A stretch of DNA of 29,278 nucleotides, taken from positions 1-29,278 of the IMG/VR virus record IMGVR_UViG_3300046171_000152; one strand, 5' to 3'. Each line of letters begins with the position of its first letter. Within the stretch, counting starts at the first letter, position 1. Of this stretch, positions 9,800 to 27,544 are shown piece by piece. Both the position numbers and the translations under genes were made by a program. The stretch is from a virus. Below the pieces are notes generated by a model. That model made no database searches, had not been told where the DNA came from, and worked only from the letters and a program-made list of their open reading frames with translations.

Positions 9800-10651
9800 A
9801 TGAGTAACACATGGGGACAAGGCGCAGTTAACAATACTATTGGTTGGGGCCAAGGGGCAAAAAACAATAGATTGAATTGGGGGAAATCTCAAAAAACAAG
9901 TTGGGCCGGACAAACAAATATTATTGGAGAACCAATTACGCCAAGCTTCACAAATGTAAATTCATTTTTGTTTGACGGAGTTGATGAAAAAATGTTTTCA
10001 ACTGCCAATTATACAGAAATAAATGGTTCTACAAATTTTAGCATTAGTTTTTGGATTAAACCAATAGGTACTAATACTAATGGAGTATGGGAAATAGAAA
10101 CACAAGGTAATAATCAAACATTAAGTTGTAGGTATATGGGTAGTCAACAACTAATAATTATTCATTTTCGTTCACAAAGTTATTATTATAGGTCAGCACC
10201 TAATTCAGTATTACTTAATCAATGGTCACATATAGTATATACTTATAATAGTGCATTAGGAAGATACGATAGACCAGAAATATATGTAAATGGTGCATTA
10301 TCTCAAGGCATAAATAGTGGTGTGCCTTATACTTCATCTAATTTTAATGGTACTTTAACTTTTGGTGATTCTACTCAATATGTATATGGGAACAATTACA
10401 TAGATGAATTTGCAGTATGGAATAGTACAACATTAACTCAAACACAAGCAAACGAATTATATAATGGAGGTACTCCTTCAGACCTTAACAATATTGCTAG
10501 TGGATTGTCATCACCTACGACATGGTTAAGAATGGGAGAAAATTCTGTATGGAATGGCTTTACTTGGACAATGACAGATGTCAATGGTGGTGCGGTTTTG
10601 AGAGGTGTAAATATGCAAGAATCAAGTAGAACAACAGACGTACCAACATAA
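9800..10651 (+). CDS. LamG/concanavalin-like virion protein (paralogue of 26822-27544)
   Basis: The 283-aa protein begins with tandem short repeats, WGQGAVNNTIG then WGQGAKNNRLN then WGKSQ (residues 5-31), probably a virion-anchoring segment. From about residue 56 a LamG-like jelly roll follows: FLFDGVDEKM, FSISFWIKP, LNQWSHIVYTY, IYVNGALS, YIDEFAVWN, ELYNGG. It ends with a C-terminal TTDVPT signature. These features are typical of glycan-binding phage adhesins. A second copy with the same motif order lies at 26822-27544. Base composition is abnormal: only 7 CG dinucleotides in 9961-10651, against about 38 in the paralogue, while the N-terminal repeats look native. The likely role is receptor binding or head/tail decoration. 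Confidence 0.8.
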   Translation: MSNTWGQGAVNNTIGWGQGAKNNRLNWGKSQKTSWAGQTNIIGEPITPSFTNVNSFLFDGVDEKMFSTANYTEINGSTNFSISFWIKPIGTNTNGVWEIETQGNNQTLSCRYMGSQQLIIIHFRSQSYYYRSAPNSVLLNQWSHIVYTYNSALGRYDRPEIYVNGALSQGINSGVPYTSSNFNGTLTFGDSTQYVYGNNYIDEFAVWNSTTLTQTQANELYNGGTPSDLNNIASGLSSPTTWLRMGENSVWNGFTWTMTDVNGGAVLRGVNMQESSRTTDVPT

Positions 10652-10665
10652 AAACGAATAAAAAA

Positions 10666-10935
10666 ATGAGTACAAGAATAGCAGACACTTACGCAATTAT
10701 AAACATTGCAGATTTACCAAACATTGATTTTAGTCAAGTGGGCGAAACAGACGAAAACACGATACGTAAAAGTTTAGACAAAACACAATTTGTTTTAAAG
10801 TGGAATACAGAACCAAGCTTTATTGCAGACGGTACGGTTGTACCTTTGCAAACTTTAACGCACGAAGAAGCTTTAGCGCTTATGGCTTCGGCAGAATGGA
10901 CGGAACCGTTTCCCGAAAACGAAATAAACGAATGA
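10666..10935 (+). CDS. Small protein following the LamG gene (89 aa)
   Basis: The 89-aa protein has two beta-like segments (YAIINIADLPNIDFSQVGET and KTQFVLKWNTEPSF) and a C-terminal helix with acidic end (THEEALALMASAEWTEPFPE). Small proteins of this look follow adhesin genes in Bacteroidota phages, possibly as chaperone or virion accessory, but the function is not established. The stop overlaps the tail-chaperone start (ATGA). Codon usage is intermediate between the foreign-looking LamG gene and the rest of the window. Confidence 0.6.
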   Translation: MSTRIADTYAIINIADLPNIDFSQVGETDENTIRKSLDKTQFVLKWNTEPSFIADGTVVPLQTLTHEEALALMASAEWTEPFPENEINE

Positions 10936-11705
10936 ATATAAATATTAAGTACCCGACGCATTTACAAGAAATACCTTTGAGCGCGTACCAAAAATGGTTA
11001 AAGGTTGAGGAAACGACAAACGATGAGGAAATATTGGCCTTTAAATTTGTATCTATTTTTTGCGGCCTGGAAATGAAAACGGTTTCACGAATGAGCGTTA
11101 AAGACGTTCATTTTATAATTAATAAAATTAAAGAAGTATTAAACCAAAAACCGGAATTTCATAAAAGGTGGAAATATAACGGAGTTGAATTTGGCTTAAT
11201 ACCGGACTTGGAAAATATGAGTTTCGGCGAGTATATAGACGTTGAAAGCCATTTGACAAAATGGGACGGTTTGCACAAAGCATTTGCGGTTTTATACCGT
11301 CCAATTACAAACACATTAAAAGACACTTATACAATCGCAGAGTATAAACCCAACGAAAAGTATATGGAAATTATGCAAAACCTACCGTTGAATATTGTAT
11401 TAGGAACGTCCCTTTTTTTTTTGAATTTAGAAAGCGAGTTGTTAAACAATTTGACACTTTATTTAAAGAAACAGACGAGGAAAACAAAAAAAACGAATAT
11501 AGTGAATGGGCGCAGTTTACCAAGTCGTGGAATTGGTACCATAGCATTTACAGACTTAGCGGCGGAAATTTCGAAAGAATTGATAGCGTCACCAATAGTT
11601 CCTTATTTAAAGCCCTTACCTTCCTTTCGTACATTACGCAAAAAGACAAAGTCGAAGCCAACGAGCGCAAAAGACAAATTAGAAAAGCAAAAAATTAAAG
11701 TATGA
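10932..11705 (+). CDS. Tail assembly chaperone-like protein, 0-frame product
   Basis: I chose the ATG at 10932 (ATGA overlap) rather than the upstream in-frame ATG at 10800. The N-terminal part resembles the conserved Bacteroidota-phage tail chaperone: LSAYQKWLKVEE, VEFGLIPDLENMSFGEYIDV, HKAFAVLYRPITNT, MQNLPLNIVLGTSLFF. The 0-frame remains open to TGA at 11703-11705 (257 aa). However, after LLNNLTLYLK (codon ending 11468) it becomes basic, Ser/Pro/Thr-rich and shadow-like. The credible protein continues in the -1 frame after a slippery T TTA AAG (11462-11468). Tail chaperones made in two lengths by -1 frameshifting (lambda G/GT type) recruit the tape measure during tail assembly. Confidence 0.7.
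   Translation: MNINIKYPTHLQEIPLSAYQKWLKVEETTNDEEILAFKFVSIFCGLEMKTVSRMSVKDVHFIINKIKEVLNQKPEFHKRWKYNGVEFGLIPDLENMSFGEYIDVESHLTKWDGLHKAFAVLYRPITNTLKDTYTIAEYKPNEKYMEIMQNLPLNIVLGTSLFFLNLESELLNNLTLYLKKQTRKTKKTNIVNGRSLPSRGIGTIAFTDLAAEISKELIASPIVPYLKPLPSFRTLRKKTKSKPTSAKDKLEKQKIKV
11462..11468 (+). promoter_or_regulatory. Probable programmed -1 ribosomal frameshift site
   Basis: T TTA AAG in the 0 frame (codons TTA 11463-11465 and AAG 11466-11468) is an X XXY YYZ heptamer. Slipping back by one gives TTT AAA, and the next codon, GAA at 11468, opens the -1 frame. Codon use switches from 0-frame-typical to -1-frame-typical at just this place. Other slip-prone tracts are the T10 run (11413-11422) and an A8 run (11486-11493). 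Confidence 0.65.
11468..11698 (+). CDS. -1 frame extension of the tail chaperone (frameshift product C-terminus)
   Basis: From GAA at 11468 the -1 frame is open for 76 codons to TAA at 11696-11698. It reads as a well-behaved protein: EYSEWAQFTKSWNWYHSIYR then LSGGNFERIDSVTN then LFKALTFLSYITQKDKVEAN. The pattern W-x-W-Y-x-S-I-Y-x-L-(A/S)-x-G-x-(I/F) followed by a leucine-rich helix is familiar from phage tail proteins of this group. There is no ATG in this frame, so it can only be made by frameshifting from 10932, giving a fusion of about 255 aa (179 + 76). It ends 3 bp before the next gene. A homopolymer indel in the assembly is the alternative explanation. Confidence 0.65.
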   Translation, partial: ETDEENKKNEYSEWAQFTKSWNWYHSIYRLSGGNFERIDSVTNSSLFKALTFLSYITQKDKVEANERKRQIRKAKN

Positions 11706-12139
11706 GCAACGAGGGGTATTCATTAGTTTACAATACTATTAAAGACACATTAGAGGCCAACCCATTAGTAAACCAATTTGGCGAAGGAATGGGGGACGAA
11801 ATAGATTTATCAAAACAAACCATTTACCCGCTATCATATATGGTAATGGAAACGGCAACGCCCGACGGAAACGCGGTACAATTTACGTTTACACTTTATG
11901 CAATGGACATAGTAGATATTTCAGAAGACGGCGTAAACAACAAACATTCGGTAATGCAAACGCAATATAATGTTTTGTTGAGGTTGTACGAAGACCTAAG
12001 ACGCGGGGATCTTTGGGACAACAAAGTACAATTAGTTGGTTTTAATATGCAAGCGTTCGAGCAAAGTTATTCTAACTTGTTGGCCGGTTGGTCCGCGAGC
12101 ATTTCACTTTATGTACCAAATCACATGACAATATGCTAA
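11702..12139 (+). CDS. Probable tail terminator / tail completion protein
   Basis: The 145-aa protein has a helical N-terminus (YSLVYNTIKDTLEANPLVNQ). Strands follow: QTIYPLSYMVMETATP, VQFTFTLYAMDIVDISED, the amphipathic YNVLLRLYEDLRRGDLW and the final SASISLYVPN. The pattern of N-terminal helix, iYPLsyM strand, MDIVD strand, long helix and final strand fits the alpha/beta fold of tail terminators (gpU-like) seen in Bacteroidota phages. It follows the chaperone (ATGA overlap with the 0-frame) and overlaps the next gene by 7 nt. The role is capping the tail tube at the head-proximal end. Confidence 0.55.
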   Translation: MSNEGYSLVYNTIKDTLEANPLVNQFGEGMGDEIDLSKQTIYPLSYMVMETATPDGNAVQFTFTLYAMDIVDISEDGVNNKHSVMQTQYNVLLRLYEDLRRGDLWDNKVQLVGFNMQAFEQSYSNLLAGWSASISLYVPNHMTIC

Positions 12140-12681
12140 ACGAGGTTTTAAAAGAAATAGAAACCTTTGGCGAAACCGTAGTAAGTGAAACGCGCAAAAA
12201 CTTAAAGAACGAAAAAATGATAAGTTCGGGGGTTTTATTTGATAGTATTGGGTACAACGTGGACCAAACAATGGACGGTTTTATTTTTGAGTTTATAATG
12301 GTTGAGTATGGTTTTTACCAAGACGAGGGGGTACAAGGTAAAAACCCCGGTGCGGTAAAAGTAAACGGCAAACCCGGAATACAAAAAGCACCCGGAAGTC
12401 GTTTTAAATTTGGTTCGGGTAAAAGCCAAGGAAGTTTGTTTAAAGGTTTGGACTCATGGGTTGTAAAAAAAAACATAGCGGGACGAAATGCAAAGGGCCA
12501 ATTTATAAGCCGGTCAAGCACAAAAAGCGCAATAGCAAAAAGTATATTTTACCAAGGTTTACCGCCGCGTCAATTTTTTACGCGAGCATGGGACAAAACA
12601 ACCAAAAATATTGATAACCAATTGGCCTTAGCGTACATTTCGGACGTCGAAGCTATATTTTTAGAATTAGTAAAACAATGA
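12133..12681 (+). CDS. HK97 gp10-like neck / tail-completion protein
   Basis: I chose the ATG at 12133 (7-nt overlap), giving 182 aa; the upstream in-frame ATG at 12088 lies deep within the previous gene. Features are an N-terminal helix (LNEVLKEIETFGETVVSETR) and a strand pair ending in VEYGFYQDEGVQGKNPGAV (about 57-75). A flexible Gly/Lys/Ser region follows, then a helix after LPPRQFFTRAWDK (about 145-157). The YGxyqDeGvqG loop and (L/I)PPRxFFxrAw motif are typical of HK97-gp10-type neck proteins joining the connector to the tail. The family call is from motif pattern only. Confidence 0.55.
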   Translation: MLNEVLKEIETFGETVVSETRKNLKNEKMISSGVLFDSIGYNVDQTMDGFIFEFIMVEYGFYQDEGVQGKNPGAVKVNGKPGIQKAPGSRFKFGSGKSQGSLFKGLDSWVVKKNIAGRNAKGQFISRSSTKSAIAKSIFYQGLPPRQFFTRAWDKTTKNIDNQLALAYISDVEAIFLELVKQ

Positions 12682-16288: not shown

Positions 16289-16461
16289 AAAATTTTAAAC
16301 GGTTATTGGCATTGCTAGAGGTACCAACGCAAAATGAAAAAAGCGAAAATATATCCATAGCAAAAGGAAAATACAAAACGCCCCGGTCAATACGAGGCAT
16401 TTATAAAGTACAAAAAAGACATTTAAAATATAGAAATAATGGCGGAAACGAAAACGGTTAA
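16285..16461 (+). CDS. Small basic protein between baseplate gene and tape measure (58 aa)
   Basis: I chose the ATG at 16285 (ATGA overlap with the 831-aa gene); the in-frame ATG at 16222 lies inside that gene. The 58-aa product starts MKNFKRLLALLEVPTQNEKS and continues basic (KYKTPRSIRGIYKVQKRHLK). It overlaps the tape-measure start by 23 nt. No family is recognised. Position suggests a tail-assembly accessory protein. The overlap arrangement and coding character make it likely real. Confidence 0.55.
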   Translation: MKNFKRLLALLEVPTQNEKSENISIAKGKYKTPRSIRGIYKVQKRHLKYRNNGGNENG

Positions 16462-18304
16462 ATTAGAGGTAAAAAGTAACGTTGACGAGGTTACGGCGGA
16501 ATTTAAAAAGACCGGCCAAGAAATAAATAAAACAACGACAGACGTAAATAATTTAAACAAGGCAACCATTAAAGGTTCTGAGGATATTGTAAAAAGTCAA
16601 AAAAAAGTACAAGACAGTTTAAAGAATACGTCAAGACAAGCTAAAAAAACTGAAAGCAATTTTAAAAAATTCGACAATGCCGCACAAAATATAAAAGGTG
16701 GTTTTGAAACGGCCGAGGGTGCAATGGAGTTATTAGGCCAACAAAGTGAAACTACCGGTGCAATTATAAGCGGGGTTGGCGAAGCAATGAATGTAAGCAA
16801 AGGCATTCAGAGTATTAAGGAATATTCAAAAAGCGTTGGTCTTGCCGGGAAAGTACAAAAGGCATTTAATCTAATTGTAAAAGCAAACCCCTTAGCACTA
16901 TTGGCAACCGCAATAGTTGGTATAATTGGCTATTTTGCAATATTTACGGACGCCATAGATTTTGCAATACAAAAATTAAAAGACCTTGGCGATTGGTTAG
17001 GAATAACAAATTTTGAAGAGGAAAAGTTGGCCGAAGAAAGAAAAAAAAGGCATGAGGAAAACATGGCCCGACATAAAGCCCAAGAATCGTTATTAGACGC
17101 CGAAATAAAACAATTAGAGGCATTAGGCAAAAGCACAATTGATTTAAGAAGACAACGCGCATTGGCGCACAAGGAAGCGTTACAACAATCATTGGAAATG
17201 GCCGGATTAATGAGCAAAGCGACAAATGCGATAAATTACATGATAAAAGGTCAAAAAACTCAAGGAAAACTTACGGCGCGACAAATTGAATTGCAGGCCG
17301 AATTACTTAATGTCGATACTGAATTAATAAATTTAGACAAAGAACAAGAGGCCGAAGAACAAAAAAACCATGACGCCTATATTAAAAGACAAAACGATAA
17401 AATAAAAAAACAACAAGATTTAGAGGCTATTGAAAATAAGCGTTTAGAAAATTTGAAAAAATTGGAAAATGATTTATTGGACGAATTGGCGGCCCTGGAA
17501 CAAGCCAATTTTAACGCTACACTAACGGACCAAGAATTAGAAGAACAAAAAGCGAGGGAAAAATATTTTAGATTAAAGACTTTAGCGGAAAACGAAATTG
17601 AAGACGAAACCGCAAAAAATGAAGCATTGGAAATTATAGAAATCAATCATTTAAACGCCATGAATGATATAAATGTAAAATACGGCGAAATTGACCAAGC
17701 AAACAAAGATAAACAAGCCGCAGACGACAAGGCAAGAGACGACAAAAAGAAACAAGACGCAATAGACGCCGAAGAGGCAAAAACGGAAGCATTAGCCGCA
17801 ATACGCCAAGCGGACATTTCTAACATTGAGGCGGGAATTAATCTTGTTAAAAGTTTAGGTAAAGACAACAAAAAAGTACAAGCGGCGGCAATTATTGCCG
17901 AAAATGCGGTGGGGGTTGCAAAAACCATAATATCAACCCAAGCGGCAAACGCGGCGGCATTAGCAACACCACAAGCCGTTGCGACAAGCGGTGCGGCGGC
18001 GGTTCCGGTTATTGCTCGAAATAATATTGCGGCCGGTTTAAGTATTGCAACGTCCGTAGCGGCTACCGCGCAAGGTTTAAGCGCATTAAATGAAAGCGGA
18101 AGTATCGAGCAAGGCCCCGAATTACCGGAAGCCCAAGGCGGCGGCGGGGTTATAAGTCCAGAATTTAATATTGTAGGCGACACCAATATAAACGATTTAG
18201 AAAATTTAGGAAGTCAACAACCTTTGCAAGCTTACGTTACAAGTCAAGACGTAACGACGGCCCAAGGTTTGGACCGGGCGCGCGTCGAAAATGCGACAAT
18301 TTAA
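16439..18304 (+). CDS. Tape measure protein
   Basis: The 621-aa protein is overwhelmingly helical. It has an N-terminal coiled coil (about 1-80), one hydrophobic segment at about 151-171 (PLALLATAIVGIIGYFAIFT) and a very long charged coiled coil (about 190-465). An Ala-rich hydrophobic region spans about 480-560 (AANAAALATPQAVATSGAAA), and the C-terminus is compact, ending GLDRARVENATI. This is the standard build of tape-measure proteins, which set tail length and may insert in the host membrane during DNA entry. At about 0.15 nm per helical residue, 621 residues would span roughly 90 nm. It is unusual that it lies downstream of the distal-tail genes rather than before them. Confidence 0.85.
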   Translation: MAETKTVKLEVKSNVDEVTAEFKKTGQEINKTTTDVNNLNKATIKGSEDIVKSQKKVQDSLKNTSRQAKKTESNFKKFDNAAQNIKGGFETAEGAMELLGQQSETTGAIISGVGEAMNVSKGIQSIKEYSKSVGLAGKVQKAFNLIVKANPLALLATAIVGIIGYFAIFTDAIDFAIQKLKDLGDWLGITNFEEEKLAEERKKRHEENMARHKAQESLLDAEIKQLEALGKSTIDLRRQRALAHKEALQQSLEMAGLMSKATNAINYMIKGQKTQGKLTARQIELQAELLNVDTELINLDKEQEAEEQKNHDAYIKRQNDKIKKQQDLEAIENKRLENLKKLENDLLDELAALEQANFNATLTDQELEEQKAREKYFRLKTLAENEIEDETAKNEALEIIEINHLNAMNDINVKYGEIDQANKDKQAADDKARDDKKKQDAIDAEEAKTEALAAIRQADISNIEAGINLVKSLGKDNKKVQAAAIIAENAVGVAKTIISTQAANAAALATPQAVATSGAAAVPVIARNNIAAGLSIATSVAATAQGLSALNESGSIEQGPELPEAQGGGGVISPEFNIVGDTNINDLENLGSQQPLQAYVTSQDVTTAQGLDRARVENATI

Positions 18305-19874: not shown

Positions 19875-20261
19875 ATGAAAGCAATTTTAAATAAACTTTA
19901 CGGAAAAAAGAAAAGCGTAAAAACAGATTTACGCAAAGTAGAATTGAATAAAATTGACGAGGTTACGGAAGTTTTCGACATGGCCGGATATAATGTTGGC
20001 GAATATTTCGACGACCAATTTTATAGCGGACGCGAGCGCATTATACATGCCCGGGACATTATGCGAATGGAGTTAAACGATTTTTATACTAAACAAGCGG
20101 AATTACAAGACATTAAAGACCAATTGGACGAAATGGGTATACCATACCCGGACCAAATACAAAATTTGATAAATATTGAAGAAAGTATTGTTGATAAAAT
20201 AAACGAAAACCATGCGGAATTTGAAAATTTAGGTATTAACCCCATGTTTGATAGACGATAA
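19875..20261 (+). CDS. Coiled-coil head-module protein, duplicate A (128 aa)
   Basis: The protein begins MKAILNKLYGKKKSVKTDLR and contains VELNKIDEV, ELQDIKDQLDEMGIPYPDQI and EFENLGINP. Each has a counterpart in the next gene (MKAILQKLYG, VKLNKINDL, ELQNLVEQLNELGV, NFENLGFYS), so the two arose by tandem duplication and diverged. A shared N-terminal MKAIL-x-KLYG tag on acidic helical proteins next to scaffold and capsid suggests a common docking or processing signal. Function is inferred only; no database family is recognised. Confidence 0.65.
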   Translation: MKAILNKLYGKKKSVKTDLRKVELNKIDEVTEVFDMAGYNVGEYFDDQFYSGRERIIHARDIMRMELNDFYTKQAELQDIKDQLDEMGIPYPDQIQNLINIEESIVDKINENHAEFENLGINPMFDRR

Positions 20262-20270
20262 TAAAAAGAT

Positions 20271-20645
20271 ATGAAAGCAATTCTACAAAAACTTTACGGA
20301 AACAACAAGCGTTCAACGAGCGTTAAGGCCGAGTTAAAATCGGTTAAGTTAAATAAGATTAACGACCTATATACGGATATTGACGTATTTAGAGATAAAA
20401 TAAACGAAACCGAGCAATTATCGGACGAAGCATATAGTTATTATAATAGTGCATTTGATATATTAAAAAACGCATATTCAGAATTTGAAGACAAAAAAAC
20501 TGAATTACAAAATTTAGTTGAGCAATTAAACGAATTGGGTGTTGATAGCGCAGAAATTGACGATTTAGAAACTAAATTTTATGGTATTGAGCAAGAATTT
20601 AACGGACTATTTAGCAATTTTGAAAATTTAGGATTTTACTCGTAA
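20271..20645 (+). CDS. Coiled-coil head-module protein, duplicate B (124 aa)
   Basis: The tandem paralogue of 19875-20261 shares the N-terminal tag MKAILQKLYGNNKR, the block VKLNKINDLYTDIDVF, the coiled coil KKTELQNLVEQLNELGVDSA and the ending FENLGFYS. It is acidic and helical throughout. It lies 9 bp after its twin and 10 bp before the scaffold gene. As with its twin, an internal head or scaffold-associated role is inferred. Confidence 0.65.
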   Translation: MKAILQKLYGNNKRSTSVKAELKSVKLNKINDLYTDIDVFRDKINETEQLSDEAYSYYNSAFDILKNAYSEFEDKKTELQNLVEQLNELGVDSAEIDDLETKFYGIEQEFNGLFSNFENLGFYS

Positions 20646-26360: not shown

Positions 26361-26822
26361 ATGGCATTAACGACAAAAATAAGTGAGTTACCCGCAAAGG
26401 GTGCCAATTTGGAAACCGGGGATTTAGTTCCTATTGCGTCCGTTGACGCCGGAAGCCCAACCGGATATACAACAAAATACGTTACCGGTTCGGAAGTTTT
26501 AAACGAAAACGCATTAATTGAATTTAATACACAAAGCGCAACATACACTTTAACATTAAGCGACGCAAATAAAATGGTTGAAATAAACAACGCCGCCGCA
26601 AATGAATTAATTATACCCCTTAATAGTGTTGTAGCTTTTCCAATAGGAACCCAAATTTTAGTTAGTCAATTAGGGACCGGCCAAACAAGTATAGGAAAAT
26701 CGTTCGGGGTAAATTTATATTCAGAAGGCAACAAACTTAAAATTGTCGGCCAATATGGTATTGTTTCTTTAATTAAAAAAAGTACGGATTTATGGTATGT
26801 AGCCGGAAACCTTGAAGCATAA
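26361..26822 (+). CDS. Virion surface/fibre-like protein (153 aa)
   Basis: The N-terminus (ALTTKISELPAKGANLETGD then LVPIASVDAGSPTGYTTKYV, residues 2-41) is the kind of attachment module placed at the start of tail or head fibre proteins. Residues about 60-140 (ATYTLTLSDANKMVEINNAA, NELIIPLNSVVAFPIGTQIL, VSQLGTGQTSIG) form a beta domain widely used in phage structural proteins. It ends with YVAGNLEA and forms a TAATG overlap with the LamG gene. It is likely a fibre or decoration subunit partnered with the LamG protein. Confidence 0.6.
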   Translation: MALTTKISELPAKGANLETGDLVPIASVDAGSPTGYTTKYVTGSEVLNENALIEFNTQSATYTLTLSDANKMVEINNAAANELIIPLNSVVAFPIGTQILVSQLGTGQTSIGKSFGVNLYSEGNKLKIVGQYGIVSLIKKSTDLWYVAGNLEA

Positions 26823-27544
26823 TGTTAGTAAGTACACCTGGAATTTTAGCAAGCGGAAGTAAAAGCGAATTTGATACAACGTCGTTTTTATACGACGGAA
26901 TAGATGATTTCATGGAAACAAATGCAAATTATACGACCTTAAATAATAGCGTAACTTTTACAATAAGCGTTTGGGTAAAAGTTAATAACCTTAACACCGC
27001 ACAAAGAATTTTGCTTATTTCGGGGGGAAGGCGAATTTTTATATATGTCTCGACAACCGGAAAAGTTGATTGTTCGGTACGTAGTAGTTCAAATTATATT
27101 CGAAGTAATGCGGGAGCAATAGTTCCCGGCACATGGGCCAATATTGTTTGGACTTGTGATACGTCGCAACCGTTGTTAGATAGGTATAAACTATACATAA
27201 ACGGACAAAGCAACGTTTCAGATAATACCGGTATAAATACTAGCTTACAAACGTTTACATTGTTAAACGTTGGTCTTGTTAGTAATAGATATTTAAACGG
27301 ACAAATAAACGAATTGGCTATATGGGACACAGTTTTAAGTTCTACACAAGCCATGGAAATATACAATAATGGCAAAGCGGATAATCTCAATAATTTAGCA
27401 ACCGCAGTATCTCCGAATAATTGGTGGAGAAGTGAAAACGCGACGTTTAACGGTACAAATTGGGCCGTACCAGACACAAACGGGCTTTTTCCAATAACAA
27501 CATCGAATATGGGAATTAATAGCGTTGTAAATGACGTACCATAA
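26822..27544 (+). CDS. LamG/concanavalin-like virion protein (second copy)
   Basis: The 240-aa protein has the LamG pattern: SFLYDGIDDFM, TFTISVWVKV, the strands around RIFIYVSTTGKVDC, GTWANIVWTC, KLYINGQSNV, YLNGQINELAIWD and EIYNNGK. It ends with SVVNDVP. It aligns motif for motif with the LamG part of 9800-10651 but lacks the WGQG repeats, and its base composition is like the rest of the window (about 38 CG in 26881-27540). LamG domains bind glycans, so a role in adsorption or capsid adhesion is likely. It closes the structural region just before the lysis genes. Confidence 0.75.
   Translation: MLVSTPGILASGSKSEFDTTSFLYDGIDDFMETNANYTTLNNSVTFTISVWVKVNNLNTAQRILLISGGRRIFIYVSTTGKVDCSVRSSSNYIRSNAGAIVPGTWANIVWTCDTSQPLLDRYKLYINGQSNVSDNTGINTSLQTFTLLNVGLVSNRYLNGQINELAIWDTVLSSTQAMEIYNNGKADNLNNLATAVSPNNWWRSENATFNGTNWAVPDTNGLFPITTSNMGINSVVNDVP

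Follow-up and report, generated by a model that had tools for sequence, protein, structure and literature searches.

A tail-module gene of Bacteroidota phages probably encodes two proteins with overlapping C-termini, read in different frames past a conserved T run

Comparative analysis of a gene in the tail module of a virus genome points to two proteins with a common N-terminal domain and with C-termini that are read from the same DNA in different frames. The sequence analysed is a 29 kb virus record (29,278 nucleotides, 37% G+C), the whole of which is called the window here, and the gene (10932-11705) is referred to as the slip gene. We think it fairly probable that its two proteins arise by polymerase slippage, with dual-coded C-termini and a role in tail assembly. 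The frame relation, the position of the T run, its length of at least nine and the selection on both frames can be read from alignments of related loci; that slippage takes place at the polymerase and not at the ribosome, and that the products are tail chaperones, we infer.

In the proposed mechanism, ribosomes translating a faithful transcript would keep frame 0 and make the N-domain followed by a 94-residue tail (257 aa). RNA polymerase would stutter on T10 (T9-T11 in relatives), and the mRNA would gain one U or lose two. Standard translation of the slipped mRNA would then continue in the -1 frame and yield the N-domain joined to a conserved 91-residue C-domain (255 aa). The same DNA would encode both C-terminal parts in different frames, each under purifying selection. 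If lambda gpG/gpGT is a guide, the two proteins probably function in tail assembly at a fixed ratio.

Reading frames of the slip gene

The slip gene is flanked by the TerL/LamG stretch on one side and by tail-module genes on the other (Table 1). Frame 0 is without stops up to 11702 and frame -1 is without stops from 11348 to 11695. The first-pass annotation had the 0 frame right (open from 10932, 257 aa) as well as the -1 stop at 11696, and its estimate of 255 aa for the shifted product agrees with the 164 + 91 codons predicted here. The N-domain matches phrog_32199 (E 2e-7, unknown function). The C-domain, which contains QFDTLFK, matches phrog_38404 in Nonlabens phage P12024S, and the 0-frame tail contains a NLESELLNNLTLYLK-type peptide. 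By its position, the next gene downstream would encode a tail completion or terminator-like protein. A homologue of the phrog_29822 neighbour is also found beside a distant slip-gene relative in genome G084.

Table 1. Slip gene, its parts and neighbouring features in the window
Feature	Coordinates	Strand	Remarks
Slip gene ORF	10932-11705	+	257 aa; 0 frame open 10932-11702, stop 11703-11705
N-domain common to both predicted products	10932-11420	+	0 frame, 163 codons up to ...LFF
Putative slip site, T10	11413-11422	+	relatives: T9 in 129 clusters, T10 in 20, T11 in 1
C-domain, -1 frame	11423-11698	+	91 codons; stop 11696-11698
Alternative C-terminal tail, 0 frame	11421-11705	+	overlaps the -1 C-domain; stop 11703-11705
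TTTAAAG heptamer	11462-11468	+	in phase; chance match, not the slip site
Next gene, phrog_30964	11702-12139	+	PHROGs match; ATG overlaps the 0-frame stop of the slip gene
Neighbour, phrog_29822	12133-12681	+	HK97 gp10-like by inspection
Candidate tape-measure protein	16439-18304	+	phrog_3336, E 3.6e-7; four genes downstream of the slip gene

Conservation of the junction

A search with the N-part returned 79 IMG/VR relatives (34-88% identity), and all those that extend to the site have T9 or T10, with the conserved -1 reading right behind it. An alignment of fused proteins (A1) retrieved at least 595 relatives, 80 of which were read. The loci that contain the junction then numbered 162, with T9 or T10 in 162/162 and the C-part in -1 wherever testable. 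A divergent clade and a third scan contributed 103 more loci (T9 in 83, T10 in 19, T11 in one), all of them with the C-part in -1. Profile searches of cellular genomes found about 30 distant relatives with exactly T9 and a -1 shift, although their N-parts are only about 20% identical; in one Bacteroidota family, 28 of 101 genomes have such a relative. The total set comprises 293 loci, 260 of them distinct, in 150 clusters at 85%. Loci were retrieved by protein and not by the T run, and the run was measured without a length filter.

Throughout these 293 loci the conserved C-domain begins directly after a T9-T11 run in frame -1; two single-frame relatives (L292 and L286) also exist. As judged from the alignments, the slip gene family thus has the shared N-terminus and conserved frame change that are expected of tail chaperones. 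L292 (genome G491) has T10 where its relatives have T9 and reads N and C in one frame, with the alternative-tail frame also open. It is a single case, possibly a flipped default frame or a homopolymer assembly error. L286 (genome G063) is very distant (38 bits); its junction has only T7, and N and C are read in one frame. In BFVD, several proteins 226-267 aa long match the N model as well as the C model, so single-frame or pre-joined relatives may exist among them.

It is very improbable that the gene is really a single frame which sequencing or assembly errors, or phase variation in T-run length, switch between genomes. Homopolymers are error-prone, the window has T10 where its closest relative L002 has T9, and L292 with its T10 does read through in one frame. 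However, all other loci hold the frame relation whatever the length of the run, extra T's being compensated, and both frames remain under selection. A sequencing indel is excluded as a general cause because the 293 loci come from many independent data sets and have the same T9-T11 run and frame relation; the T10 count of the window itself is that of the record.

The only cultured phages that match are the Nonlabens phages P12024S and P12024L, in which the two halves are annotated as separate hypothetical proteins (P12024S_38 and P12024S_39 in P12024S). PHROGs likewise files the halves of the family separately, as phrog_32199 and phrog_38404, both of unknown function. The frame change is unrecognised in the existing annotation of these halves. 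Searches of Pfam and NCBIfam gave no name for the family. In the literature searched, which covered subscription papers in part, no description was found of the slip-gene family or of slippage in tail chaperones.

Site and mechanism of slippage

A programmed -1 change in a tail-module gene, as put forward in the first-pass annotation, is strongly supported, but its placement at TTTAAAG and its reliance on a ribosomal heptamer are not what the relatives favour. A ribosomal -1 frameshift at this heptamer (11462-11468) is the least credible of the explanations weighed here. TTTAAAG is indeed canonical, in phase and within the stretch where both frames are open. However, the -1 frame is open from 11348, the -1 reading of the window between 11423 and 11462 (EFRKRVVKQFDTLF) is already protein-like, and the relatives keep these -1 residues from 11423 on (EFRKRVVKQFDTLF...), directly after the T run and 39 nt upstream of TTTAAAG. 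Conservation among homologues had been suggested as a check. TTTAAAG is in phase in only 2/293 loci, the window and L002 (TTTAAAA in seven others), and is therefore a chance match. Of the 42 representatives, 5 have an in-phase X XXY YYZ heptamer no more than 120 nt from the run.

The T run itself is nearly fixed in length. Among the 150 clusters it occupies codon phases 0, 1 and 2 in 32, 87 and 31 cases, and in the loci of the frame-change set it is never shorter than nine, in any of the three phases. All 42 representatives have such a run at the site, while only four other runs of T>=9 exist in 220 kb of representative loci. T8 in the arrangement xTT TTT TTT y (x and y not T), which leaves an in-phase T TTT TTT intact, was found in 0/119 clusters, whereas the frequencies of x and y predict 19.7. 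The Fisher p of 5e-22 for this deficit is indicative only, as the clusters are not independent; the sounder number is that of class changes on the tree, where the run class changes at least 12 times. The absence of T8 is therefore not one ancestral accident. Folding energy downstream of the run equals that of shuffled sequence (mean z -0.05, 42 loci).

Transcriptional slippage is expected at a homopolymer of A or T that keeps a length of roughly nine upwards, and the run of T>=9 is of this kind. Runs of nine A or T are sites of efficient slippage for bacterial RNA polymerase, and the Thermus dnaX site is a run of nine T (PMC5009743). The alternative is programmed -1 ribosomal frameshifting on U_UUU_UUU within the run, which would give otherwise identical products. 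An in-phase T_TTT_TTT is present inside the run in every locus and every phase, and -1 ribosomal shifting is an established device for tail chaperones (PMC5009743). However, T8 would suffice for a ribosome and is never seen, stimulatory downstream structure was not detected by folding energy in the 42 loci, and the Z position is never C, though TTC makes up 31% of Phe codons. Across great divergence, no other heptamer substitutes for the T run. A run of at least nine in any phase, the absence of T8 and the lack of detected downstream structure together favour the polymerase, and on this comparative evidence polymerase slippage is likely and ribosomal slippage rather unlikely.

Two further patterns were seen near the run. 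The Arg of the F-R pair that follows it is encoded by AGG in 29 of the 42 representatives, by AGA in five and by CGN in none; elsewhere in the C-part AGA outnumbers AGG by 116 to 13 and CGN is common. The AGG bias may reflect 0-frame Leu-Gly, or else a signal at the nucleotide level. In 154/162 loci the third (+1) frame reaches a stop two codons past the run. As a universal feature this was rejected, since in most of the distant clade the distance is 10-46 codons, and the immediate stop is clade-specific.

Selection on both C-termini

The 0 frame stays open much longer than the -1 protein would predict. In the stop-avoidance test, the -1 protein was kept while its codons were redrawn synonymously, and the first 0-frame stop was located. 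This stop was expected 10.7 codons after the run and was observed at a mean of 71 (42 representatives). The p value was at most 0.02 in 40/42, the exceptions being L082 (0.05) and P12024S (0.27). In the window 90 codons are open against 13.8 expected, 0/2000 recodings reach 90, and a longest-open-stretch test on the 0-frame tail gave p 0.0006. Comparably open shadows are absent from the corresponding frame of ordinary window genes. Among 34 shadows tested, a -1 shadow frame of the gene at 11702-12139 is open for 75 codons where 34 are expected (p 0.002).

Relatives of the L031 group supply an internal control, as their 0 frame ends 54 codons past the run. Their -1-frame changes are low at third positions inside the overlap and high past the 0-frame stop, and first positions show the reverse. 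In 23 non-overlapping pairs from several clades, whose counts are not fully independent owing to some shared ancestry, -1-frame third-position change per codon was 0.18 inside the overlap vs 0.37 after the 0-frame stop (22/23 pairs), and first-position change was 0.16 vs 0.07 (22/23). In the distant clade third-position change was 0.28 inside the overlap vs 0.55 outside, and stop avoidance was weaker (p < 0.05 in 7/32). RNA structure cannot explain the substitution signature, because the pattern is codon-phased and ends at the 0-frame stop.

The open 0 frame and the change in substitution pattern exactly at its stop indicate, at the level of sequence comparison, that selection acts on both C-termini along 50-90 codons. 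Dual coding entails purifying selection on each frame. The lack of an early 0-frame stop, which had been noted as odd, is real and is explained by dual coding; the description of the 0 frame beyond the switch as shadow-like does not hold, since selection keeps it open and constrained. Another reading is that the open 0 frame merely avoids premature termination and polarity on the downstream tail genes, its amino-acid sequence being irrelevant. Stops are avoided in the 0 frame, and in the window this frame ends on a stop that overlaps the start codon of the following gene, as this reading would have it. However, many relatives end the 0 frame 54 codons after the run, well short of the gene that follows. 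The substitution pattern, too, is phased to 0-frame codons and shifts at that very stop. Both points make the polarity reading improbable.

Predicted structures and the tail-chaperone role

In the AlphaFold model of the 0-frame product the N-domain is predicted with confidence, block pLDDT being mostly 86-95 up to about residue 160. A long helix (residues 153-191) crosses the junction and continues in the 0-frame tail, and the end of the model is of low confidence. The N and C parts of the shifted product were modelled separately; the C-domain is predicted to be small and all-helical (mean pLDDT 87.8), and its consensus over the 42 representatives is F..LF...QF..WGWY.SIY.LA.GD..RF..VT.L...CLTYLTFEKQK.EIE. 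A PDB fold search with the model of N plus 0-frame tail gave no significant match, and the VIA rows align mainly the long helices 141-228 with Z below 8. The BFVD relatives are uncharacterised, apart from one weak match named 'Tail assembly chaperone protein' (A0A8S5V8Z8, E 0.058). Kinship with T4 gp26/gp51, raised by a weak phrog_166 match, was rejected: profile comparison gave a probability of 0.2-0.3%, and T4 gp26/gp51 belong to phrog_150.

The N-part of lambda G/GT-type chaperones binds the tape measure and the C-part the tail tube, and both proteins are absent from the virion. A chaperone role for the slip gene is suggested by its place in the tail module, by the two predicted products from one N-domain and by a nearby tape-measure-like gene in genome G424, where both copies of the slip gene lie within about 0.7 kb of such a gene. 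In the window four genes separate the slip gene from the candidate at 16439. In P12024S the candidate tape measure (P12024S_49, by size and position only) is about 10 genes away. No tail-chaperone match was found in PDB, Pfam or NCBIfam. By analogy, a tail-assembly role like that of lambda G/GT is likely. The evidence suggests that the slip gene works like this family, but it is not filed as a member because it lacks tape-measure adjacency in the window and because no homology to known chaperones was found. Of the lambda-like device initially proposed, the role is plausible and the canonical ribosomal heptamer is not the best-supported mechanism.

Comparison with known systems

Frameshifting in tail chaperones is textbook knowledge, described as a shift of the ribosome close to where the first gene ends. 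The slip gene resembles lambda gpG/gpGT and other tail chaperones in being a tail-module gene with a common N-domain and an extra C-domain in the -1 frame. It differs from lambda in that the putative slip site is a T9-T11 run with a length constraint, and in that the unshifted product extends well beyond the site in a long selected tail overlapping the C-domain. Unlike lambda, it is also without an adjacent tape measure in the window and without a sequence match to known chaperone families. It shares a run of about nine T or A with Thermus thermophilus dnaX and Shigella spa13/mxiE, and its minimum length, as in those genes, lies in the range where bacterial RNA polymerase slips efficiently. 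Unlike in those genes, both frames past the run encode long selected C-termini, slippage is predicted from sequence, and the loci belong to phages and phage-derived regions of Bacteroidota. Potyvirus P3N-PIPO is similar in that polymerase slippage, here a prediction, opens an overlapping frame and yields a common N-part with a dual-coded overlap. However, it concerns an RNA virus replicase, a short slip motif and unrelated proteins, whereas the slip gene is found in a DNA phage.

According to the comparative evidence, the selected signal would be a run of polymerase length, followed by a long overlap with a function for each C-terminus. A known phage trick has probably been reached by a different route, a stuttering RNA polymerase. 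Whether the ribosome or the polymerase slips becomes a directly testable question. The family further yields an easy annotation rule, based on the T run, for tail genes of Bacteroidota phages, be they marine, freshwater or host-borne. It also adds a DNA-virus example of sustained dual coding with good sampling.

Host-borne loci and other features of the window

In several genomes of one Bacteroidota family (G424, G410, G425, G491 and others; loci L323-L330 and L331-L348), homologues of phage genes are scattered between ordinary host genes across tens of kb. They include TerL, portal, capsid, protease, tape-measure-like and tail genes as well as the slip gene. The host genes sucC-sucD lie among or near the dispersed set in G424, G410 and G409. 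The set looks like a host-borne, gene-transfer-agent-like system and not like a normal prophage; the papers searched yielded no gene transfer agent of Bacteroidota. We tentatively put forward, as a possibility somewhat short of even, that T9 polymerase slippage, giving two tail-assembly proteins with fully dual-coded C-termini (50-90 codons), is an ancient and near-fixed device of Bacteroidota tailed phages, which persisted once such phages had turned into dispersed, gene-transfer-agent-like loci of their hosts.

The gene order of the window between 8610 and 25792 is unusual: TerL, slip gene, tail genes, tape measure, protease, capsid, tail-tube-like gene and portal. Two similarly built LamG/concanavalin-like proteins are encoded at 9800-10651 (by domain match), directly after TerL, and at 26822-27544 (by inspection). 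Near the capsid genes, two adjacent small proteins (19875-20261 and 20271-20645) have the same start (MKAIL.KLYG..K) and are probable duplicates.
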